Below, piece by piece: positions 41,305-57,579 of a DNA stretch of 64,000 bases (positions within the stretch are counted from its first letter, which is position 1; every line of letters starts with the position of its first letter). The notes below the pieces were generated by a model. It made no database searches and was not told the DNA's origin. It saw nothing but the letters and a program-made list of their open reading frames with translations. The DNA comes from Paenibacillus piri (GTDB lineage: Bacteria; Bacillota; Bacilli; Paenibacillales; NBRC-103111). The translations under genes and the position numbers were made by a program. The stretch lies in NCBI RefSeq assembly GCF_004354045.1, contig NZ_SMRT01000001.1, positions 620,001 through 684,000 of the forward strand. The letters are read 5' to 3'.

Positions 41305-42336
41305 TTATCGTGCCATATTCCGAGCCGTGCTGTCCCTGATGATCAACTCCGGCTTCTTCGGCATTTCTATGGTTACCGGCTTGCCCTCAATCCGCTGCAG
41401 CAGAAGATCGACCAGTTTGGCGCTGGCCCAGGAAATATCGTAGCTGACGTTGGTCAGATTCGGCCGCAAGCTCCGGAAAAACTCGGAAGGACCAAAGCCG
41501 ATCACCGATACATCCCGTGGCACCCGGTATCCATTGTCTGTGAAGTAGTTCAAGGCGGCAACGGTTGTGATTTCGTTGGAAATCATAAGGGCCGTCGGCC
41601 TTTCCGTCTGAAACAGCATATGGATGCCGTTATAGCTCTCATTCATTTGCCCTTGGACTTTGACAATCATTTCCTCCCTGAACGGAACATGGTACATATC
41701 CAGCGCCTTCTTGAAGCCTTTAATACGGTCCGCATTAAAGGGCAAATAGCCTCCCTTCACGTTGCCTACCAGGAAACGAATGTCCGTATGGTTCAAATCC
41801 AGCAAGTATTTGCCGGCAATAAACCCGCCTTCAACATCGTCCGAAGACACGTAATAGTGGTCTTCGGGTTTGTCCGAATACTTCATGTTAAAGACATAAG
41901 GAATTTCCGCCTCCTCCAGCAAGGAAGTCAGTCCGTCGTTATGCGATGGGCTAAAGATGATAAATCCGTCCGCCACCTGATTTTTGATCACTTCAAAATA
42001 CGACTCGGAATCTCCTTCTGCGGAAGTGATAAGCAATATGTTATATCCTTCCTTATGGGCTTTCTCCGTCAGCGCTTTGAATTGAGCCTGGAATCCGGCA
42101 TTGAACATGATATGACTGATATGAGATTGGCTGATGACGAGGCCGAGGATGTAGCTTTTACCGGATTTGAAGATCCGGGCGGTTTGACTTGGAATATATC
42201 CTAGACTCTCTATAGCGTCCAACACATTCTGCCTTGTGCGGGGTTTGACGAGAGCAGATTGGTTTAATACTCTGGATACGGTAGAGGTCGTCACTTTCGC
42301 TTTCTCAGCTACATCGCGGATCGTGGGCTTTTTAAT
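41305..42336 (-). CDS. LacI-family regulator 1 of the glycohydrolase island, apparent ATT start
   Basis: A 343-residue LacI repressor. A complete N-terminal helix-turn-helix (KKPTIRDVAEKAKVTTSTVS) is obtained only if translation starts at ATT 42336. A TGA lies three codons upstream, and the next usual start (GTG 42294) would cut off half the DNA-binding domain. AAGGAG is only 1 nt from the ATT, but AGGGG lies 10 nt away. The paralogue at 43591-44622 shows the same ATT. Operator site 1 overlaps its own promoter, so it is probably self-repressed. Effector is unknown, likely the imported glycoside. Confidence 0.85.
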   Translation of the reverse strand: MKKPTIRDVAEKAKVTTSTVSRVLNQSALVKPRTRQNVLDAIESLGYIPSQTARIFKSGKSYILGLVISQSHISHIMFNAGFQAQFKALTEKAHKEGYNILLITSAEGDSESYFEVIKNQVADGFIIFSPSHNDGLTSLLEEAEIPYVFNMKYSDKPEDHYYVSSDDVEGGFIAGKYLLDLNHTDIRFLVGNVKGGYLPFNADRIKGFKKALDMYHVPFREEMIVKVQGQMNESYNGIHMLFQTERPTALMISNEITTVAALNYFTDNGYRVPRDVSVIGFGPSEFFRSLRPNLTNVSYDISWASAKLVDLLLQRIEGKPVTIEMPKKPELIIRDSTARNMAR

Positions 42337-42372: not shown

Positions 42373-42392
42373 ATGGGAACGATATCATTATA
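42373..42392 (-). promoter_or_regulatory. Operator site 1 and -10 box of LacI regulator 1
   Basis: ATGGGAACGATATCAT (42373-42388) matches 13 of 16 positions of the palindrome ATGGTATCGATACCAT found at 49671. On the minus strand a TATAAT box at 42392-42387 overlaps its edge, placing the operator at the transcription start of the LacI gene. Confidence 0.65.
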
Positions 42393-42449
42393 ACAGTTTT
42401 TTTCGATAAAAACATCCATTTTCCGATTTGAATTCTCCCCAAAATCGAG

Positions 42450-42478
42450 TTGACATACGTGATGAGTAGTAATAATAT
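42450..42478 (+). promoter_or_regulatory. Promoter of the AraC regulator gene
   Basis: TTGACA (42450-42455), a 17-bp spacer and TAATAT (42473-42478). Operator site 2 lies about 36 nt downstream. Confidence 0.7.
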
Positions 42479-42514
42479 GAAAACATAAGTGCTTATAAAT
42501 ATGCGAATTCAAAA

Positions 42515-42530
42515 ATGGCAACGATACCAT
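42515..42530. promoter_or_regulatory. Operator site 2, upstream of the AraC gene
   Basis: ATGGCAACGATACCAT matches 14 of 16 positions of the site at 49671 and is flanked by A-run and T-run, extending the symmetry to AAAAATGG/CCATTTTT. Bound repressor would block transcription from the promoter at 42450. Confidence 0.7.
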
Positions 42531-42656
42531 TTTTGACTCAATACCCCGCAATTAGGTCCTATCCGCATTCCGTTATGTACACCCCAAGCCAGATGTTGAA
42601 ATCAGGTTATCTGAGCTATATCATCGATCAAAAAAACGAGAGAAGAGGGGATGGCA

Positions 42657-43493
42657 ATGCAACATTCATACCGAATTATGGAGAAACCGGTTCAAAATTA
42701 TAGCTTCTCCGACGTGGTCCCTGTATATTATCATTCTTCTCAAAGCCCTCGCACCGTGCCGCAAAACAGACCGAACCTGACGCAGAAGTTCGAGAGCAGC
42801 ATGTCTAATGAATACGCTAATGTAATCGAGTTGGAAGAGAGACTAAGTAAGACGGTCATGAAATGCACTGCCAGAAAGCTTCGGGAAACAATGGACTCTA
42901 TCGCTATTTCCTTGGATTACATACAGCAGGCAGATACGGTGGCCGCCCGCAGGGTTTACCTTCAACTGATCCACGCCATGATTCGAACGATATACAAATC
43001 CGGTATCTCTCTCCACGAAGTATTGAGAAATCATGCCGACTATCATGCCGACATCGAACAATTCCAAACGAAGCAGGAGATTCATGAGTTTGTTGAACAA
43101 TTGTGCATTTCGATTTGCAGTAATTTAGCCGATCCGCGTATTGACAAATATCACCGGATCGTATGGGAAGTCACATCCTACATTGATGAGCATTTTAATC
43201 AGGATTTCGGATTGGGGCAATTGTCCGAGCGAATGAATTGCTCTTCAACCTATATTAACCGTTTACTGAAGCAGCACACGGGCAGCACTTTTTACAACCT
43301 GCTCACAGAGAAGCGCATCATTCACTCCAAACAGCTGCTGTCCATGAATGATTTGACGATTAACCGGATCAGCGAGGAAGTGGGATATAATAATGTGCAC
43401 AGTTTCATTCGCGCCTTCAAACGCAGTGAAGGAATTACTCCTGGTCAATTTCGCGAGTTTCTGATGGGAGATGGGATGGAATTCGAGTGCTGA
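42657..43493 (+). CDS. AraC-family transcriptional regulator without receiver domain
   Basis: About 278 residues. The C-terminal double helix-turn-helix is typical (DFGLGQLSERMNCSSTYINRLL and INRISEEVGYNNVHSFIRAFKR regions, ending GITPGQFREF). The N-terminal half is helical and resembles the linker of YesN-type response regulators, but there is no receiver domain, cupin or membrane segment. ATG 42657 was chosen because AGAGGGG ends 6 nt before it; ATG 42651 is too close. It may activate the ABC transporter or nucleoside hydrolase genes. Confidence 0.85.
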   Translation: MQHSYRIMEKPVQNYSFSDVVPVYYHSSQSPRTVPQNRPNLTQKFESSMSNEYANVIELEERLSKTVMKCTARKLRETMDSIAISLDYIQQADTVAARRVYLQLIHAMIRTIYKSGISLHEVLRNHADYHADIEQFQTKQEIHEFVEQLCISICSNLADPRIDKYHRIVWEVTSYIDEHFNQDFGLGQLSERMNCSSTYINRLLKQHTGSTFYNLLTEKRIIHSKQLLSMNDLTINRISEEVGYNNVHSFIRAFKRSEGITPGQFREFLMGDGMEFEC

Positions 43494-43590
43494 CGAAGCG
43501 AACAAAAACTCCGTATGCAGCGACCGGATCGAAATCGTCGGCGCTTCCCACATACAAAGTTTTATTCAACGGCCTTTGCAGGCAAGCTTT

Positions 43591-44622
43591 TTACGGCCTA
43601 AAATTACGCATGGTGCTATCCCTAATAATCAGCTCGGGCTTTTTAGGCCATTCGGGAGTTACCATCTTGCCTTCGATCCGCTGCAGCAGAAGATCGACCA
43701 GCTTATCGCTGGACCAGGTGATGTCATAGCTGACATTCGTTAAATTCGGCCTGAGATTCCGAAAAAATTCCGAAGGTCCGAAGCCGATCAAGGATACATC
43801 CTGCGGCACGCGAATCCCATGGTCGTGAAAATAGTTTAAGGCAGCCACCGTCGTTGTTTCGTTGGAAATCATCAGTGCAGTCGGCCAGTGTGACTGGAAC
43901 AATTGATGAATCAGATTGTAGCTTTCCTCCATTTGTCCGGGGATGCCGACGATCATTTCCTCTTTGAACTCTATGCTGTACTCATTCAGTGCCCTCTTGA
44001 AGCCGTTAAGTCTGTCCACATTGAAAGGCATTAGGCTCCCCTTGACAACACCCACGATAAAACGAATATCCGTATGGTTCAAATCCAGCAAATACTTGGC
44101 AGCCATGTATCCACCCTCAATATCATCGGAGGAGACGTAGTAAATGTCTTCAGGATTGGTGGAATATTTCATATTGAACACATACGGAATGCCTGCTTCC
44201 TCGAGCAAAGAGGTCAATGATTCGTTTGCAGACGGGCTTAGTATGATAAAACCGTCGGCTACCTGATTTTTGATGACCTCGAAGTAGGAATCACAGTTGG
44301 CGTCGGTGGAGGAGATAATCAATATATTGTATCCTTCGTTATGCGTTTTGACGGTTAGAGCTTTGAACCTCGCTTGGAATCCGGCGTTATAGACGAGCTC
44401 GCTAATATGCTGCGTACTAATGACAAGTCCAAGGATACGGCTCCTACCGGTTTTGAACACTTGAGCCGTCTTGTTAGGAATATAACCGAGACTCTTCACG
44501 GCTTCCAGCACCCTCTGTCTTGTGTGAGGCTTAACAAGACTGGAATCGTTCATCACCCGGGAGACAGTGGAGGGCGTTACATTCGCTCTTTCAGCGACAT
44601 CATGAATGTTCGGCTTCTTAAT
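43591..44622 (-). CDS. LacI-family regulator 2, paralogue of regulator 1, apparent ATT start
   Basis: A 343-residue LacI repressor very similar to regulator 1 along its whole length, including identical stretches such as SEFFR.LRPNLTNVSYDI and the RDST end. A complete helix-turn-helix (KKPNIHDVAERANVTPSTVS) again needs an ATT start at 44622, here with GAAGGAGGG at a good 8-nt spacing and a TGA six codons upstream. The next usual start (GTG 44556) would lose the recognition helix. Its upstream region holds a repeat family 1 copy and the nucleoside hydrolase gene, which may share its transcript. Confidence 0.86.
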   Translation of the reverse strand: MKKPNIHDVAERANVTPSTVSRVMNDSSLVKPHTRQRVLEAVKSLGYIPNKTAQVFKTGRSRILGLVISTQHISELVYNAGFQARFKALTVKTHNEGYNILIISSTDANCDSYFEVIKNQVADGFIILSPSANESLTSLLEEAGIPYVFNMKYSTNPEDIYYVSSDDIEGGYMAAKYLLDLNHTDIRFIVGVVKGSLMPFNVDRLNGFKRALNEYSIEFKEEMIVGIPGQMEESYNLIHQLFQSHWPTALMISNETTTVAALNYFHDHGIRVPQDVSLIGFGPSEFFRNLRPNLTNVSYDITWSSDKLVDLLLQRIEGKMVTPEWPKKPELIIRDSTMRNFRP

Positions 44623-44655
44623 GGTACGATCCCTCCTTCAATGTCGATTTCATCC

Positions 44656-44766
44656 GATTACGACTTTATCGGGTTAAGACCCCCACCTCTAAGGTGGGCC
44701 TTGAATCAGGTGGGGGAGAGTCCCCATCTGATTCCCCGATGTTCAGCATAGCTGAACGAGTTCACT
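44656..44766 (-). repeat. Dispersed repeat family 1, copy 2 (IS200/IS605-end-like)
   Basis: Inverted relative to copy 1, so that read on the minus strand it begins AGTGAACTCG 7 nt after the nucleoside hydrolase stop and ends GATAAAGTCGTAATC before the LacI 2 ribosome site. Compared with copy 1 it keeps four more bases (GGGG) after TGAACATC. Confidence 0.72.
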
Positions 44767-44773
44767 CAGATGC

Positions 44774-45709
44774 TTAGGAGTGCTGCCTCAGCTTGGCAAA
44801 TAGGTCCATGAAGACCTCGTTGCGATCAATATCCATAGCCTCTTTATAAAAATGCCGGGAATCATCGAAGGAATAAGTAAAGTTCGGATTGAGGATCGGT
44901 GTCCGCCGAACCGACGAGGGGACCCATTGCTCGTTCAGCAGCCAGGCAATTGCGGATACATCCCAAAGCACCTTGGACCATCCCATTCGATTTTGCCCAA
45001 ACTTCGTAAACCGCCCCCGGATCATGTCGCTGAAGTAGGTGCCTAACTTATTGGCTCCCCGCAAGCAGGCATCAATCTCATAAGGTGTCGTCAGCAGATG
45101 GGAGGCTACCCCATGGCAAGGAAGGACGACCAGCGGAACGCCGCTGTCATAGATCAGCGAGGAGGCATGATAGTCCTGCGACACGTTAAATATTCGCTGA
45201 GTAGGCCAATAGTGAGCGTTTGGACCGAGCCATACGACGACGATATTGCGGATAATGTCAGGACATTTGGCGATTGCCGACGCTACATTCGTAATCGCCC
45301 CGATGGCCACTACATATAGCGGTTTGGAGGAAGACAGAGCAAGCTCGATGATTTTATCAGCTGCTTCGCTCGTTACCGGTTCATCGTGACTGCTCATGTA
45401 CTGCGTGGAGCCTTTATATACCGGAGGCGCATTCTTCAATTCCATCAGGTCAAAGATGTTAAAAATTTCTTTGTAGCTCTTTTCCATTCCGTCTGCCGGG
45501 CTAACCGAGTTCCAATTATAGAACGGTGCTGCCGTTACGGCCAGAAGATCAATCTTTTCCGGACAAAGCAGCGTGTAGGAGAGGGCGAACTGATCATCCA
45601 CCTCGTTGAAAGTATCGGTATCGAGTACCATACGGACGCGTCCTTCAGGACAAGCAAGTCTTTGCAACATCGTACTGTCATCCAGTTTGGGCCATGCGGA
45701 GCTGTTCAT
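44774..45709 (-). CDS. Nucleoside hydrolase (IUNH family)
   Basis: Cleaves the N-glycosidic bond of nucleosides to base and ribose. The calcium-binding aspartate cluster reads DTDTFNEVDDQFAL, a variant of the DTDPGxDD motif; the last calcium Asp lies in LWDVSAIAWLL and the N-terminal half also has VAIGAITNVASA. Length is about 311 residues. ATG 45709 was chosen because TAGGAGG is 12 nt upstream; ATG 45721 abuts the ribosome site. It is divergent from an ABC importer and near two ADP-ribosylglycohydrolases, suggesting a joint pathway. Confidence 0.88.
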   Translation of the reverse strand: MNSSAWPKLDDSTMLQRLACPEGRVRMVLDTDTFNEVDDQFALSYTLLCPEKIDLLAVTAAPFYNWNSVSPADGMEKSYKEIFNIFDLMELKNAPPVYKGSTQYMSSHDEPVTSEAADKIIELALSSSKPLYVVAIGAITNVASAIAKCPDIIRNIVVVWLGPNAHYWPTQRIFNVSQDYHASSLIYDSGVPLVVLPCHGVASHLLTTPYEIDACLRGANKLGTYFSDMIRGRFTKFGQNRMGWSKVLWDVSAIAWLLNEQWVPSSVRRTPILNPNFTYSFDDSRHFYKEAMDIDRNEVFMDLFAKLRQHS

Positions 45710-45887
45710 TGTGTGTTCCATCCTCCTAATAATAGCCATTATTTTGTAATTGCTTACGGGCCTCCCTAAAGTAATTAAAATTATTCCTCTTAAGGGCTGA
45801 GTCTCTTTTGGGGGACTTTGCTTGTATTATAGGGGATACATCGGAAAGTCTGGAATATTCAATTATCTAACTGGATCCTGATTATGG

Positions 45888-45955
45888 AATTGTACATTTG
45901 TTTCATAATTGTACAGTTAGGCGACTAAACTGTTCATTTACTTCAAGTTGAACAG
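45888..45955. promoter_or_regulatory. Candidate activator site between nucleoside hydrolase and ABC importer
   Basis: Two direct repeats AATTGTACA (45888-45896 and 45907-45915) start 19 bp apart, a layout that suits AraC-type activators. Next to them CTGTTCA (45930-45936) faces TGAACAG (45949-45955). The 343-bp divergent gap holds no gene. Confidence 0.55.
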
Positions 45956-46052
45956 GGCGCTAAGATTAAGCTATCAAACGGAAATGGTTGGAAGTAATGA
46001 TGCACAATCTAAAGCGCAATCAGTACCTGTCCATCGATCGTGAGGTGCTTAT

Positions 46053-47000
46053 ATGAGAGAAGAACTGTGTTCGCAGCCCGAAAGCTCCGCTCTTCAGCTT
46101 ATGCCGCTGGCTAGGTTAATGAAAAATTTGGTCCGCTATAAGTTTTTCTATTTGATGCTCGTTCCTGGACTTCTGTATATAGCCATTTTCCATTATGCCC
46201 CGATGTTCGGACTCGTCATTGCTTTCCAAGATTACAAGGTGTTTAAAGGGGCAACGGGCAGTCCATTTGTCGGCTTCGCTAATTTCGTGTACTTGTTCAA
46301 GTCGCCTCAATTTATTACAGCTATGAAAAATACGTTTATTATAAGCGCTTACAAAATCATTATTGGATTTCCGGTTCCCATTCTGTTAGCTCTTCTAATC
46401 AATGAAGTTCGCTATATCATCTTCAAACGCAGCGTGCAGACGATTCTATACCTGCCGCACTTTCTGTCGTGGATTGTCATGTCCGGCCTGCTGTTCAATT
46501 TCCTGACCGAGCAAGGACCTGTCAATAATCTGATCAAGATGACGGGCCGGAAGGCCATATTCTTCTTCAGTGATGAGGTGTATTTCCGAAGCATACTGGT
46601 GCTTTCCGACATCTGGAAGGAGATGGGATGGAACGCCATTATTTACTTGGCCGCACTCACCGTTGTTTCCCAGGAAATGTACGAGGCAGCCAAGATCGAT
46701 GGAGCGACCCGGTTCCAATGCATGATGAAAATTTCTATGCCCAGCATTATGCCTGTCATCATGATCATGCTCCTGCTGAGGATGGGCAGCATCCTTAACG
46801 TAGGCTTCGAGCAAGTATTCAATCTGTACAATCCGATGCTGTACAGTGTGGGAGACATCATTGACACGTATGTATACCGGATCGGTGTGCTGGAGAATAA
46901 ATTCCATATTTCCGCTGCAGCCGGAATGTTCAAATCCGTCATCGCCTGCATCATGGTAATTACCACCTACTATTTTTTGGAGAAAGTGGAGGATAAGTGA
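46053..47000 (+). CDS. CUT1-type ABC transporter permease (LplB family)
   Basis: Membrane permease of 315 residues with six helices. LMLVPGLLYIAIFHYAPMFG and the late EAAKIDGATRFQCMMKISMP loop (the EAA contact with the ATPase) are family landmarks. LplB/YtcP systems import oligosaccharides and related glycosides; the shared ATPase (MsmX type) is usually encoded elsewhere, and none is seen here. It is the first gene of a three-gene transporter unit. Confidence 0.92.
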   Translation: MREELCSQPESSALQLMPLARLMKNLVRYKFFYLMLVPGLLYIAIFHYAPMFGLVIAFQDYKVFKGATGSPFVGFANFVYLFKSPQFITAMKNTFIISAYKIIIGFPVPILLALLINEVRYIIFKRSVQTILYLPHFLSWIVMSGLLFNFLTEQGPVNNLIKMTGRKAIFFFSDEVYFRSILVLSDIWKEMGWNAIIYLAALTVVSQEMYEAAKIDGATRFQCMMKISMPSIMPVIMIMLLLRMGSILNVGFEQVFNLYNPMLYSVGDIIDTYVYRIGVLENKFHISAAAGMFKSVIACIMVITTYYFLEKVEDK

Positions 47001-47923
47001 TGAAACCGAGACGACAGCAAGCTGCCGGACCGCGCCGCAGAAAAAATGTTTTCGACGCAGACCACATTTTTGGAGCGTGTAACCTATTGTTCTTAACCAT
47101 AATTACACTGGTAACGCTGCTCCCGGTCATCGCCGTCCTGCTCAGCTCCGTAACGCCAATGGATGATGTGATCAAGCATCCCAGCTCGTTCATCGTCATC
47201 CCCAGCAGCCTCACGTTCGATTACTATGCGTGGTTATTTCGTGGCAGCTCAAGCATTATCGATGCCTACACGATCACGATTCTTAGAACGCTTGTCGGGA
47301 CAGCCATCAGCCTTGCTCTTACCATTGTGACCGCGTATCCGCTATCCAAAAAGTTTTTGCCGGGGCGCGGCGGGATCATGTCGATCTTCTTCTTCACCAT
47401 GCTGTTCTCCGGCGGGATCATTCCTACGTTTCTGATCGTTAACGGCCTGCATTTGACCAACTCGTTCTGGGCGCTCATTATTCCTAGCGCATTAAGCGTT
47501 TACAACCTGATCATTATGCGGACCTTTTTCCAAACGATACCCATTGAATTAGAGGAATCGGCCTATATCGACGGCGCTTCCGAGATGACTACACTACTAA
47601 GAATCGTCTTGCCGGTATCTTTGCCATCACTCGCTACGATCAGTTTGTTCTATGCCGTGTTTCATTGGAATGCGTTCTTCGACGCGGTCATGTACATCAC
47701 CAATCGAAAGCTGTGGCCGCTGCAGTTGATACTGCGAGAGATCTTGGTTAAGAACGATATCGGCGATCTCGCACTCGGCGGCTCACTGTCTGAGGTCAGA
47801 CCGCCTAGTTCGGTGCTGATCAATACGACCATTGTGGTTGCCGTACTTCCTATAATGTGTGTGTATCCATTTCTGCAGCGCTATTTTATTCAGGGCATGA
47901 TGGTCGGCTCCATTAAGGGATAA
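47000..47923 (+). CDS. CUT1-type ABC transporter permease (YtcP/CarB family)
   Basis: Second permease, about 307 residues. FTMLFSGGIIPTFLIV and ESAYIDGASEMTTLLRIVLP are characteristic; it ends FIQGMMVGSIKG, the normal end of this subfamily. ATG 47000 overlaps the LplB stop as TGATG, with GTGGAGGA 6 nt upstream. Confidence 0.92.
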   Translation: MKPRRQQAAGPRRRKNVFDADHIFGACNLLFLTIITLVTLLPVIAVLLSSVTPMDDVIKHPSSFIVIPSSLTFDYYAWLFRGSSSIIDAYTITILRTLVGTAISLALTIVTAYPLSKKFLPGRGGIMSIFFFTMLFSGGIIPTFLIVNGLHLTNSFWALIIPSALSVYNLIIMRTFFQTIPIELEESAYIDGASEMTTLLRIVLPVSLPSLATISLFYAVFHWNAFFDAVMYITNRKLWPLQLILREILVKNDIGDLALGGSLSEVRPPSSVLINTTIVVAVLPIMCVYPFLQRYFIQGMMVGSIKG

Positions 47924-48003
47924 ACGGCCTGTTCAAGCCACCTGCAAACCCCGCCAGCAGGAAGGTTTGTAATAGAACCAAACAATATGGGAGGTTATGG
48001 GAA

Positions 48004-49512
48004 ATGAAAGGAAAGCAAAAAGCCAGCTTAGGCCTGTCCGCCACACTGCTTCTGTCTATTGCTGCCGCTTGCACCAACAATGATGCAGCACCGCCAGCTG
48101 CAAGCTATGGAAAAGATTCCGGTCCGATCAAGCTATTGTATACGAAGGGCGGTTTTGAGAAGGCTCCGGACGGCAATCCCATTAAAGAAGCAATTGAAAA
48201 AGGTTCGGGCGTGAAATTCGATCAAACTTCTCCGCCATCGGCCAACTACGCGGATCAAGTGCCTGTGATTATGGCTTCCAATGATAAGCCGGACGTCGCG
48301 GTAATGCCTACGAATCATGCCATCTTTGACTACGCCAAACAAGGCGCACTGCTGGATTTGAAGCCTTACTTGAATCTCATGCCGGATGTGCAAAAGTCGG
48401 TTCCGAAGGAAGCGCTCGACTACTTTACCGAGAACGGCAAATTGTGGGCCATTCCGATTTGGACCAGCCCGCAGCGCTATAATTTTGTTATTCGTGGCGA
48501 TTGGTTGAAAAAGCTTAGCCTCCAAGTGCCAAAGACGCTTGACGAACTGCACAACGTTCTGGTTGCCTTTACTGAGAAAGACCCTGACGGCAATGGCGTC
48601 AAGGATACCTATGGGATTAGCGGGTTGGGCCTCGATTCGCTCGACGGCATATTCGGTGCATTCGGTGTTGTTGCAGGCGATGCACCTTGGGTAAGCCCAA
48701 CGAAAGCGAGCGTCTATTTCGTTGAACAGAACGGCAAGCTGATTCCACAAACAACGCGTCCGGAAGCCAAAGAAGCTTTGACTCTGCTCGCCAACTGGTA
48801 TAAGGAGGGCCTCATCGATCCGGAGATGTTCACTCAAACCTCAGCCGTACGAGACGAGAAATTTGTTAAAAACCGCTACGGCGTAACGGCCAACTGGTGG
48901 ACTTGGGAATCCAACCAGGAAGTAACGATGAAGAAGACGGATCCAAACGTCCAGCTGCTGCGAATTGCTCCGCCGATCGGACCTCGTGGTGAATCGGGCT
49001 TACGCGGTACACCACTCGTTGCCCGTGGCGTAGTTGTCATGGCGAACACCAAGCATCCCGAGGCTTCGGCCAAATTTATGAACTACTTCAACTCCGATGA
49101 AGGCGCAATGAATACGTACACAGGGATTGAAGGCATTCATTGGGAGAAAAAGGACGGCAAAATCTTAACAATGCCGCAATTTGATAAAGACAGCAAGTGG
49201 ATTCAATGGTATTCCTTATTCGAGAACGAAGCTCCGCTGCTCAAAGTGGAAACTTATGCAGTTCAGTCCCGTCGGGATGCTTTTAATTGGAAGGTCATCA
49301 AAAATGCCGCCGATCTGATGAGTTCCCAGGCTGAGCTCAAATATTCCGCCGATCTGCGTGCATTGACAGCCGATTATTACGCCCGTTTCATTACCGGCAA
49401 AACTCCGCTGTCCGACTTCGACAAGTACGTACAAGAATTCAATAAACGCGGCGGCCAAGAATGGACGGATGAGGTGAATAAAATTTATCAGGACAAAAAA
49501 GCGAAGAAATAG
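48004..49512 (+). CDS. Extracellular solute-binding lipoprotein of the importer
   Basis: A 502-residue LipO/family-1-like binding protein. The signal ends with lipobox SIAAAC (Cys23). DPDGNGVKDTYG is the calcium-loop-like motif common in these proteins. It follows the two permeases after 80 nt, which contain a short CAAACC/GGTTTG hairpin. It sets the substrate range of the importer, probably a glycoside or nucleoside-like compound. Confidence 0.9.
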   Translation: MKGKQKASLGLSATLLLSIAAACTNNDAAPPAASYGKDSGPIKLLYTKGGFEKAPDGNPIKEAIEKGSGVKFDQTSPPSANYADQVPVIMASNDKPDVAVMPTNHAIFDYAKQGALLDLKPYLNLMPDVQKSVPKEALDYFTENGKLWAIPIWTSPQRYNFVIRGDWLKKLSLQVPKTLDELHNVLVAFTEKDPDGNGVKDTYGISGLGLDSLDGIFGAFGVVAGDAPWVSPTKASVYFVEQNGKLIPQTTRPEAKEALTLLANWYKEGLIDPEMFTQTSAVRDEKFVKNRYGVTANWWTWESNQEVTMKKTDPNVQLLRIAPPIGPRGESGLRGTPLVARGVVVMANTKHPEASAKFMNYFNSDEGAMNTYTGIEGIHWEKKDGKILTMPQFDKDSKWIQWYSLFENEAPLLKVETYAVQSRRDAFNWKVIKNAADLMSSQAELKYSADLRALTADYYARFITGKTPLSDFDKYVQEFNKRGGQEWTDEVNKIYQDKKAKK

Positions 49513-49670
49513 CAGACCTTCTGGCGCGTTGCAGGATTTTCGACAATCGCCATCAAAGGAGCGATCAACTATGAAGCGGAGATTCGTGTGCTCTACGGCA
49601 ATGCTTCGGGAGTTAAAGTATCCGCTTGTGGCAAGGAATTTATACTGTGAGAAAGGAATTGTGTTCAAAA

Positions 49671-49686
49671 ATGGTATCGATACCAT
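49671..49686. promoter_or_regulatory. Operator site 3: perfect palindrome before the glycohydrolase genes
   Basis: ATGGTATCGATACCAT is a perfect 16-bp palindrome, typical of LacI-family operators, 40 nt before the first glycohydrolase gene. TTGTGT at 49659 with TACCAT at 49681 could be the promoter, in which case the operator lies across the spacer and -10. Confidence 0.75.
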
Positions 49687-49725
49687 ATATATTTTTCATA
49701 AGAACAAATGAGGAGAGAAAAATCT

Positions 49726-50793
49726 ATGAGCGAACAAGTAAGCTTAAGAGAGAAATTTTACGGATGTATTGCCGGAGTTCATATCGGTTCTGCGATGGGA
49801 GCGCCAGTCGAGGGCTGGGATTTCGAGCGGACGGAAGCAACCTATGGGATTTTGGATAAATTAGTATCCTACGAGCATTTCAACAACGGTTGGGTACGTG
49901 AGGCTGGTACGACCGAGGATGGTGTCGAAAGACAGAAGCTGATGATCTCCGCCATTATTGAAAAACAGGATCGAGTGACTGCAGAGGATGTCCGCAGACA
50001 GTGGTTATTGAAAATTAAACCAGAGTCGGCAGGGATGATCTCGGAGCCGTTCGAAGCGGTGCTGCTCGCGATGGCGAAGAGCGGTATTCCGGCCAGAGAT
50101 ATCGGTAAATATTGCGACTATGCCGGGCTGAACAGCATGTCCCGTTCGTGCCATCCGATCGGGTTAATTAATGCCGGAGATATCGAAAATGCAATTAACG
50201 ATGTGAATGAGGTTGGACAGCTGTACCAGACGTCAAATGGACGCGGCTTGAAATGGGCGGCGGTAACGGCATCGGCCATTGCAGCCGCAACCAAACCGAA
50301 TGCAACGGTGGATAGCGTCATCGGAGCGATCTATAACTACTGCGATCCGGATGTGGTCGTGAAGGAGATTGACCGCGAGCTGGGGCGTACACAGCACATC
50401 TCCGATATTCGCGAACTGCGCAAAGCTTTACATGAGTCCTATAGTATCAGAGGCATTCCTTACGAAGTGAGCTATGCAAACGAAGTCGTAACGAAAGCTT
50501 TATGCATTTTCAAAATGGTGAATGCCAACGTCAAGGAAGCTTTGATTACGGCGATCAATATGGGAAGAGATACGGACTGCATTACGGCGGTTGCTGCAGG
50601 GATTTCCGGAGCGCTCAGCGGCACAAGCTCGATCCCTGAGGAATGGATTAAGCAGGTCGATTATGCCACTTCACTGCATGTCGTAAGCAATTCGCATCGA
50701 ACGATGAAAGAGCATGCAGAAGGCTTGTATCAGGCTTACCATTCAAGGTTGATAAGATTGAAGGCTTATTCCGAGCAGATGGCTGCTATTTAA
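49726..50793 (+). CDS. ADP-ribosylglycohydrolase-family protein 1
   Basis: About 355 residues, all-helical ARH/DraG fold. YGCIAGVHIGSAMGAPVEG is the N-terminal glycine-rich entry. Where classic members have a TDDT metal motif, this has GTTEDGVERQK; the C-terminal metal motif is GRDTDC instead of GGDTDT. Magnesium binding is still plausible, but substrate is likely not protein-bound ADP-ribose. AGGAGAGA supports ATG 49726. It is the first of two tandem paralogues and is led by a perfect operator. Confidence 0.87.
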   Translation: MSEQVSLREKFYGCIAGVHIGSAMGAPVEGWDFERTEATYGILDKLVSYEHFNNGWVREAGTTEDGVERQKLMISAIIEKQDRVTAEDVRRQWLLKIKPESAGMISEPFEAVLLAMAKSGIPARDIGKYCDYAGLNSMSRSCHPIGLINAGDIENAINDVNEVGQLYQTSNGRGLKWAAVTASAIAAATKPNATVDSVIGAIYNYCDPDVVVKEIDRELGRTQHISDIRELRKALHESYSIRGIPYEVSYANEVVTKALCIFKMVNANVKEALITAINMGRDTDCITAVAAGISGALSGTSSIPEEWIKQVDYATSLHVVSNSHRTMKEHAEGLYQAYHSRLIRLKAYSEQMAAI

Positions 50794-50831: not shown

Positions 50832-51947
50832 ATGAGTCAAAATATTCGCCTTAAAGATAAATTTTATGGCTGCATTGCGGGAGTTCATGTCGGGGCAGCG
50901 ATGGGCGCTCCTGTCAAGGGCCTCAGCCATCAGGAAATCGAAGCGAAATACGGCATTGTGGACCGCTTATTGCCATACGAGCGCTATAAAAACGGCTGGG
51001 CCCGCGCTGCAGGTACGACGGAAGATGGCGTTGAGAGACAGAAGCTGATGATCACGGCCATTATCGAAAAGCAGGATCGTGTGAATGCGGAAGATATTCG
51101 CTCCATCTGGGTCAGGGACATTAAGTCGGAAGCAGCCGGTACTATCGCGGAGCCGTTTGAAACGACCTTGCTATCCGTTGCCAGAAGCGCTGTTCCTGCC
51201 AGAGACATCGGTAAGTATTGCGATTATGCGGGACTAAGCACGGCTTCAAGCGCATGCCAGCCGATCGGTCTGATTAACGCTGGCGACGTCCGCAATGCGG
51301 TAGCTGACGCGTTCGAGATCGGGCAGCTGTATCAAACCTCCAAAAGCTACGCCGTACGGTGGGCCGGAGTTTCCGCTGCTGCGATTGCTTCAGCCGCTAA
51401 GCCAGGTGCAACTGTGGATAGCGTGATCGGCGACATCTTCCGATATTGCGATTACTCGGATCTTACTCATAAGATTGACGGCTCCAAGTATGGGTATCTT
51501 CGCGATAACGTCATTCAGGAGCTCGATTCGGGCTTGAAGCGTACGGCACACTGTACAGATTTTCATGAATTGAAAGTGGCGTTTGACAGTATTTACTACG
51601 GCTGCGGCGTTCCTTATTGTAACAGCTTCGCCAACGAAGCGATGACGAAAGCGATCTGCATTCTTCGATTGGTGAAAGGAAATGTGTATGATGCCATCCT
51701 GGCCGGAGTAAATATGGGAAGAGATACGGATTCCGTTGCCGCTGTTGCCGGCGGGCTGGCCGGTACACTACAAGGTGCAGCGGCACTGCCTGCGGAGCTT
51801 ATCAAGCAAGTGGATCAAGCTACGGCTTTGAATCCGTTTACGAATAATCAAAGAACGATCAAGGAGCAAGCTGACGGATTGTACCAGGCATTCCACGCGA
51901 GACTGCAAAGAATTAATACATTTACCGAAACGATGCTAGCTATTTAA
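50832..51947 (+). CDS. ADP-ribosylglycohydrolase-family protein 2 (tandem paralogue)
   Basis: 371 residues, closely similar to protein 1 from end to end, with the same YGCIAGVHVGAAMGAPVKG, GTTEDGVERQK and MGRDTDS motifs. It has an insertion of about 15 residues near position 215 (SDLTHKIDGSKYGYL). It lies 38 nt after protein 1 with GTGAGGAGAG upstream. Two forms may handle related substrates or work as a heteromer; a tandem duplication is the likely origin. Confidence 0.87.
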   Translation: MSQNIRLKDKFYGCIAGVHVGAAMGAPVKGLSHQEIEAKYGIVDRLLPYERYKNGWARAAGTTEDGVERQKLMITAIIEKQDRVNAEDIRSIWVRDIKSEAAGTIAEPFETTLLSVARSAVPARDIGKYCDYAGLSTASSACQPIGLINAGDVRNAVADAFEIGQLYQTSKSYAVRWAGVSAAAIASAAKPGATVDSVIGDIFRYCDYSDLTHKIDGSKYGYLRDNVIQELDSGLKRTAHCTDFHELKVAFDSIYYGCGVPYCNSFANEAMTKAICILRLVKGNVYDAILAGVNMGRDTDSVAAVAGGLAGTLQGAAALPAELIKQVDQATALNPFTNNQRTIKEQADGLYQAFHARLQRINTFTETMLAI

Positions 51948-57469: not shown

Positions 57470-57579
57470 GATTACGACTTTATCGGTTAAGACCCCCACC
57501 TCTAAGGTGGGCCTTGAATCAGGTGGGGTAGAGTCCCCATCTGATTCCCCGATGTTCAGCAAAGCTGAACGAGTTCACT
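57470..57579 (-). repeat. Dispersed repeat family 1, copy 3 (IS200/IS605-end-like)
   Basis: Inverted relative to copy 1 and nearly identical to copy 2. On the minus strand it begins 11 nt after the stop of the solute-binding protein gene and ends GTAATC. Confidence 0.72.

Follow-up and report, generated by a model that had tools for sequence, protein, structure and literature searches.

A predicted LacI-family operator and putative AUU-initiated repressor genes in an ADP-ribosylglycohydrolase-family cluster of Paenibacillus piri

The window analyzed is a stretch of 64,000 nucleotides from Paenibacillus piri (contig NZ_SMRT01000001.1, positions 620,001 to 684,000 of the forward strand), in which a cluster with two LacI-family regulators and two ADP-ribosylglycohydrolase-family genes carries a recurrent 16-base palindrome, of consensus WTGGYAWCGWTRCCAW, studied here as a candidate operator. 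Positions without a contig or locus prefix are those of the window. The regulators LacI1 (41305..42336) and LacI2 (43591..44622), both on the minus strand, have 343 residues each and share 73% identity in alignment; both contain the LacI helix-turn-helix (HTH) domain PF00356 (residues 5-50 of LacI1) and the sugar-binding domain PF13377. Their putative start codons are ATT, at 42336 and 44622 respectively, with GGAGG 9 bases upstream in LacI2. Between them lies the gene of an AraC-family regulator of 280 residues (42651..43493, plus strand; Pfam HTH_18 and HTH_AraC). The cluster continues with a nucleoside-hydrolase family gene (44774..45739, minus strand; PF01156), the genes of an ABC transporter with two permeases and a solute-binding protein (46053..49512, plus strand; Pfam BPD_transp_1 twice and SBP_bac_1), and the two ADP-ribosylglycohydrolase-family genes ARH1 (49708..50793, plus strand; PF03747, E 2.4e-31) and ARH2 (50832..51947, plus strand; PF03747, E 4.7e-28), the latter 38 bases 3' of the former.

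The preliminary description of this DNA had reported a perfect palindrome at 49671 and variants of 14/16 and 13/16 identity at 42515 and 42373, and all three are present. O-ARH1 (49671..49686, ATGGTATCGATACCAT) has 0 mismatches and lies upstream of both ADP-ribosylglycohydrolase-family genes; O-araC (42515..42530, ATGGCAACGATACCAT) has 2 mismatches and lies about 30 bases 3' of the expected araC transcription start; O-lacI1 (42373..42388, ATGGGAACGATATCAT), predicted to be autoregulatory, has 3 mismatches. None is assigned a strand. The second site had been placed after the araC promoter, which is borne out by the promoter scan: the promoter is TTGACA-17-TAATAT (42450..42478, plus strand), and the operator begins 37 bases past the end of its -10 box. 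A TTGACA promoter with a spacing of 17-18 is found in all 11 compared regions. The third site had been placed on the -10 box of lacI1, which holds only in part: the operator abuts this TG-extended TATAAT (42387..42392, minus strand; weak -35), overlapping it by two bases only, and covers the expected transcription start. This promoter was read from the sequence and is absent from the promoter-scan list. The sole promoter candidate before ARH1 is weak (TTCAAA-18-TATATT) and holds the operator within its spacer; in the alignment as read, it is unconserved in P. cremeus and P. aestuarii.

A partial copy, ATGGTACGAT, had also been proposed at the LacI2 start (44621-44630). These letters exist, covering the spacer between the Shine-Dalgarno sequence and start codon of LacI2 plus the first base of that codon, but they are not an operator: the best 16-mer starting between 44601 and 44650 has 7 mismatches, and no site with up to 3 mismatches stands at that place in P. 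cremeus, where the LacI2 gene comes after the nucleoside hydrolase gene and overlaps it. An operator at the LacI2 start was hence rejected. Likewise, no site with up to 3 mismatches lies upstream of the nucleoside hydrolase gene, upstream of the transporter genes or between them.

The three sites are the sole matches with up to 3 mismatches in the window, in which 0.23 would be expected. In the whole genome (7,972,962 bases) there are three matches with up to 2 mismatches, two of which are in this locus, so close matches are not scattered at random; the third (C1:62416) is without the central CG and lies within an open reading frame (ORF) of 532 residues. Allowing 3 mismatches yields 38 matches versus 13 for the reversed pattern, three of them in the locus and one upstream of a third paralogue, LacI3, on contig C56. 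Given the 13 matches of the reversed pattern, many of the 38 are noise. No regulon beyond the locus was found genome-wide, the 34 remaining places with up to 3 mismatches being mostly not inspected singly. A longer pattern with flanking A/T (AAATGGBAWCGWTVCCATTT, up to 3 mismatches) has 6 matches in the genome (reversed control, 4): three in this locus, one upstream of LacI3 and two elsewhere. In this genome, P. cremeus and P. aestuarii, the top two matches per genome fall in this locus or its counterpart. Two matches to the longer pattern were set aside: one on contig C58, outside any ORF of at least 80 residues yet without the central CG, and one on contig C7, near another LacI gene (C7:118855). 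The operator is an even palindrome with a central CG, which was imposed only in the half-site scan described below and not in the mismatch scans.

Relatives of LacI1 were found in 7 of 197 genomes, P. piri included, among which are P. cremeus JC52 (G081), P. aestuarii CJ25 (G096), P. thalictri (G045) and Gordonibacillus kamchatkensis (G017). The order in P. cremeus is LacI1, AraC, LacI2, nucleoside hydrolase, transporter, a GH116-family gene, ARH1 and ARH2. Its araC site is the identical 16-mer with identical AAAA/TTTT flanks, and its ARH1 site, ATGGCATCGATGCCAT, stands at the same place with matched changes in both halves. In P. aestuarii, which has one LacI, sites occur before lacI, near rpiB and before ARH1, the last (ATGGCATCGATTTCAT) at the same place as in the window. 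All eight regions of the LacI1/LacI2 clade have a site that starts 29-37 bases ahead of the lacI start codon, the P. cremeus lacI site being detected only by the looser half-site scan. Further sites in relatives lie near rpiB or araC.

The sites also follow the regulator. When public genomes were scanned with an ARH1 profile, 48 loci emerged, nine of which hold LacI1/2-type (seven) or LacI3-type (two) genes. These nine present 15 sites with up to 1 mismatch and 23 with up to 2, over 173,507 bases. The 39 loci without such genes present none with up to 1 mismatch and a single one with up to 2, over 597,109 bases; one of them (L085) has two distant LacI genes, 29-30% identical to LacI3, and no site. 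The 11 regions compared upstream of lacI hold 25 sites with up to 2 mismatches, whereas 200 dinucleotide shuffles averaged 0.035 and never exceeded 1. LacI3 itself lies near an ARH gene of its own and has sites of the same class. The half-site scan gave 24 sites in the LacI1/2 clade and 9 in that of LacI3. At position 5 of the half-site, left free in the scan, 42 of 48 half-sites of the former have C or T and 11 of 18 of the latter have G. In the LacI protein tree, the branching order among LacI1, LacI2 and the single-LacI genes is poorly resolved. The operator is thus rare elsewhere in the genome and co-occurs with its regulator group. One local operator class, as the preliminary description had proposed, is seen at lacI1, araC and ARH1 and is tied to this LacI group (eight of eight regions; 23 sites versus 1), although not at LacI2.

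On these grounds, we regard it as highly probable that the palindrome is the operator of the LacI clade that includes LacI1 and LacI2, and that lacI1, araC and ARH1-ARH2 form an autorepressed local regulon. The sign of control is taken to be repression. A LacI dimer at 42373 would cover the lacI1 transcription start, giving autorepression; one at 42515 would block araC from about +30, just past its promoter; and one at 49671 would block transcription into ARH1-ARH2. Release would be by a small molecule, probably one formed from whichever sugar or riboside the cluster handles, while the transporter operon would be reached indirectly, through AraC. An AUU start (AUC in some relatives) would keep the repressor level low. 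If so, the cluster offers a testable operator and regulon for ADP-ribosylglycohydrolase-family genes, and finding the inducer would point to the substrate of the enzymes. Nothing was found in literature searches joining ADP-ribosylglycohydrolase with LacI/Paenibacillus, with ABC transporter/glycoside hydrolase, or with ribose-5-phosphate isomerase/nucleoside hydrolase.

Several observations weigh against this interpretation. The site before ARH1 is present in three genomes only (those of the window, P. cremeus and P. aestuarii), and the 2-mismatch scan shows none directly before ARH1 in the other seven of the nine loci with this LacI group. With the strict pattern (3 mismatches), no site was found in loci L031, L032 and L033, whose LacI proteins share 44-52% identity with LacI1 or LacI2 and likewise lie near an ARH gene; the L031 region has one site with a looser pattern (L068) and three in the half-site scan, while L032 and L033 fell outside that scan. 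The permuted-palindrome control (300 permutations, mean 0.25) is unclean, since the near-identical WTGGBAAC reaches 25 sites and two others have 13 each. Given the kinship among the species, the loci are not independent of one another. The totals of the longer pattern in P. cremeus (7 versus 7 in the reversed control) and P. aestuarii (12 versus 8) hardly exceed the control, so weight can be placed only on the best places. Finally, the assembly holding the window is rated 9.95% contaminated, though the counterpart locus in P. cremeus speaks against a piece of foreign DNA here.

The preliminary description had both paralogues reading the operator. It is possible, although we hold it somewhat doubtful, that the operator is real and read in this strain by only one of them, or by the unlinked LacI3. 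A single clade LacI is seen in the analyzed stretch of six relatives (P. aestuarii, P. montanisoli, P. lignilyticus, P. taihuensis, CF384 and OV219); given that these have the same sites, the operator class does not need two paralogues, and either or both may retain it. In the window, LacI1 has Thr-Ser and LacI2 has Pro-Ser at the pair of recognition-helix residues which we take to set specificity, and O-lacI1 carries a LacI3-like half, ATGGGAAC. On the other hand, Thr-Ser occurs in both P. cremeus paralogues, and the same operator class is found in single-LacI relatives whose pair is Pro-Ser; either pair thus appears compatible with the operator.

A far less probable explanation is that the sites are cre boxes of CcpA, i.e., elements of general carbon catabolite repression, instead of local LacI operators. 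CcpA is itself a LacI-family protein, and a further point against the local operator is that some sites, above all O-lacI1, resemble cre: O-lacI1 departs from the cre consensus at 1 position in the window and at none in P. cremeus. The araC site, however, has 2 mismatches to that consensus, and no TTGGCAACGWTGCCAA site is listed within 2; the site at 49671 was not scored by the cre scan. GG/CC positions are not known to be features of cre. CcpA is a global regulator with many cre sites per genome, whereas close matches to the palindrome are limited to this locus in the genome, and the sites track the local LacI group (23 versus 1). Moreover, a separate cre-like box with up to 2 mismatches lies just 3' of the -10 box in 7 of the 11 regions, though not in the window; these boxes, 3' of the TTGACA promoter, are at L026 8166, L028 7328, L059 7619, L061 7442, L029 8035, L066 6097 and L068 6178. 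As for chance palindromes in AT-rich intergenic DNA, the statistics within the window are modest, with 1 in 100 dinucleotide shuffles also giving three matches, but the genome-wide confinement of close matches to the locus, and the conservation of place and symmetry across species, contradict such an origin and leave it a negligible probability.

The local operator of the LacI1/LacI2 clade is accompanied by apparently unusual start codons. No ATG, GTG or TTG start that retains the HTH is available to either LacI1 or LacI2. In LacI1, a stop lies three codons upstream of the ATT, with no canonical start between, and the first canonical codon downstream is codon 15, inside the DNA-binding domain; in LacI2, the stop lies six codons upstream and no canonical codon follows before codon 23, where the DNA-reading helix is nearly at its end. 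The start position reads AUU or AUC in nine of the ten clade genes: ATT in LacI1, LacI2, P. montanisoli, P. taihuensis and OV219, and ATC in both P. cremeus genes, P. lignilyticus and CF384, the tenth being the ATG of P. aestuarii. In four of the nine (LacI1, LacI2, P. taihuensis and CF384), the frame back to the upstream stop lacks any canonical start. The other five do have one: 3 codons up and inside the Shine-Dalgarno sequence in P. cremeus LacI1, an ATG 8 codons up in OV219, an ATG 15 up in P. lignilyticus, and a TTG 26 up in P. montanisoli and P. cremeus LacI2. GGAGG is found 8-9 bases upstream in eight of the ten genes (seven AUU/AUC and one AUG), and the two LacI1 genes have only a weaker Shine-Dalgarno sequence of GGGGTG type. 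The three LacI3-type genes all have TTG at the start position. AUU (AUC in some relatives) is thus the very probable start of the repressor genes in the LacI1/LacI2 clade, and should keep the repressor scarce; AUU and AUC belong to the class of starts that IF3 discriminates against. In an ORF list limited to ATG, GTG and TTG, the LacI2 frame begins after most of its HTH. If the rare starts are used, this would expose a likely annotation error, in which the DNA-binding domain is lost from gene calls restricted to these three codons.

To place these starts in the genome, 30 of its 31 LacI HTH matches were read. In 27 of them a canonical start precedes the HTH by no more than 15 codons; the three without are LacI1, LacI2 and a distinct LacI on contig C17. 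The last (locus L139, C17:32802-33806) is a second LacI-family gene with a putative ATT start, and has relatives in 138 of the 197 genomes. Among the best 30 loci of these 138 genomes, 29 were read, with ATC in 19, ATT in 8 and ATA in 2 at the start position, and no ATG, GTG or TTG there; in the thirtieth (L164), the translation begins with Ile. A canonical start further upstream exists in 17 of these 29 genes; the other 12 have none before the upstream stop is reached.

The infC gene of this genome reads GGAGGTGGAAGGTT-ATT, with in-frame TTG and ATG codons 14 and 23 codons upstream of the ATT, and a second IF3-like gene on contig C1 begins with ATG. In Escherichia coli, infC starts at AUU. 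In Staphylococcus aureus, an AUA start of infC is reported (PMC13009471). Given its Shine-Dalgarno sequence and the known AUN starts of infC, the gene of this genome appears to use the ATT. We put forward, tentatively and with slightly more doubt than belief, that at least two LacI lineages in Paenibacillus relatives are held low by conserved AUU, AUC or AUA starts, the apparent class of infC. Repressor supply, and hence basal expression of the regulon, would then be tied to IF3 or ribosome status as well as to sugar, and gene callers limited to ATG, GTG and TTG would hide such regulators. If used, these rare starts would add sugar-type LacI repressors to the short list of bacterial genes initiated at AUU, AUC or AUA. 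Among the papers listed by literature searches on AUU and non-canonical starts, no LacI gene started at AUU or AUC was seen, from which absence from print is not claimed.

Other features of the cluster are as follows. A GH116-family gene, assigned by Pfam in P. cremeus, lies in relatives between the binding-protein gene and ARH1, and is whole in P. cremeus and P. aestuarii; here it is lost (49513-49660) save for about 75 bases of its 3' end (49573..49647, plus strand), which match at 72% over the last 25 residues. Apart from this remnant, no GH116 match was found in the genome save one weak partial match on contig C31 (36%, E 1.1e-4). The clusters of relatives also hold an rpiB-type sugar-phosphate isomerase gene (L028 7497; L056 13374-13814), which was not found in the window. 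Relatives of ARH1 with 60-67% identity occur in metagenome-assembled genomes labelled archaeal, planctomycete and acidobacterial (L083, L084, L080 and L075). The genes upstream of the cluster look inositol-type, judging by gene order and sequence; two of them were checked by Pfam.

Two kinds of repeats are also present. A hairpin-rich repeat of 107 bp lies at 44660-44767, between LacI2 and the nucleoside hydrolase gene, and again at 57474-57579. It has at least 40 genomic matches at 95-100%, this copy included (40 of 126 candidates were scored), forms a much more stable DNA fold than its shuffles do (z -6.3) and has no Rfam match; an Rfam scan of 41-58 kb found no known RNA element at gathering scores. 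Direct repeats AATTGTACA-N10-AATTGTACA lie at 45888-45915, between the nucleoside hydrolase and transporter genes, and are kept in P. cremeus as AATTGCACA repeats; the same pattern did not find them in six other loci. These direct repeats are a candidate AraC site.

In comparison with known systems, the predicted operator fits the known kind of LacI operator, and the conserved AUU/AUC starts would be the new part, if shown. CcpA and its cre boxes share with the sites described here a LacI-family reader, the central CG and a partial overlap in consensus, yet CcpA is a global regulator, whereas these sites are restricted to a locus and have GG/CC arms. Among the local LacI-family regulons described in PMC4052901, an even palindrome with a central CG is reported for 1173 of 1303 factors, autoregulation for more than three quarters of local regulators, and sites mostly 30-140 bases upstream of the start codon. 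The present system resembles them in its even palindrome, central CG, predicted autoregulation, distance of sites from start codons and carbohydrate-type genes, and differs in that its targets include araC and ADP-ribosylglycohydrolase-family genes and its repressor is duplicated. The main text of that work makes no mention of Paenibacillus.

Regarding the starts, S. aureus ccpN (AUA) and cvfC1 (AUU) are reported to combine a rare start with a strong Shine-Dalgarno sequence and conservation (PMC13009471). The product of ccpN is likewise a metabolic repressor with an AUN start, while here a LacI-family repressor of sugar type is concerned and initiation is predicted from the sequence. An AUU start is also described for pncA of Borrelia burgdorferi, along with how databases truncate such genes (PMC13398362), and a GTC start for Streptomyces sigR (PMC5472188). 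The E. coli lacI gene has a weak GTG start, which is reported to raise basal expression of the operon (PMC11445065). It is likewise a LacI repressor gene with a weak start, but GTG is a common alternative start, and AUU and AUC are far weaker.

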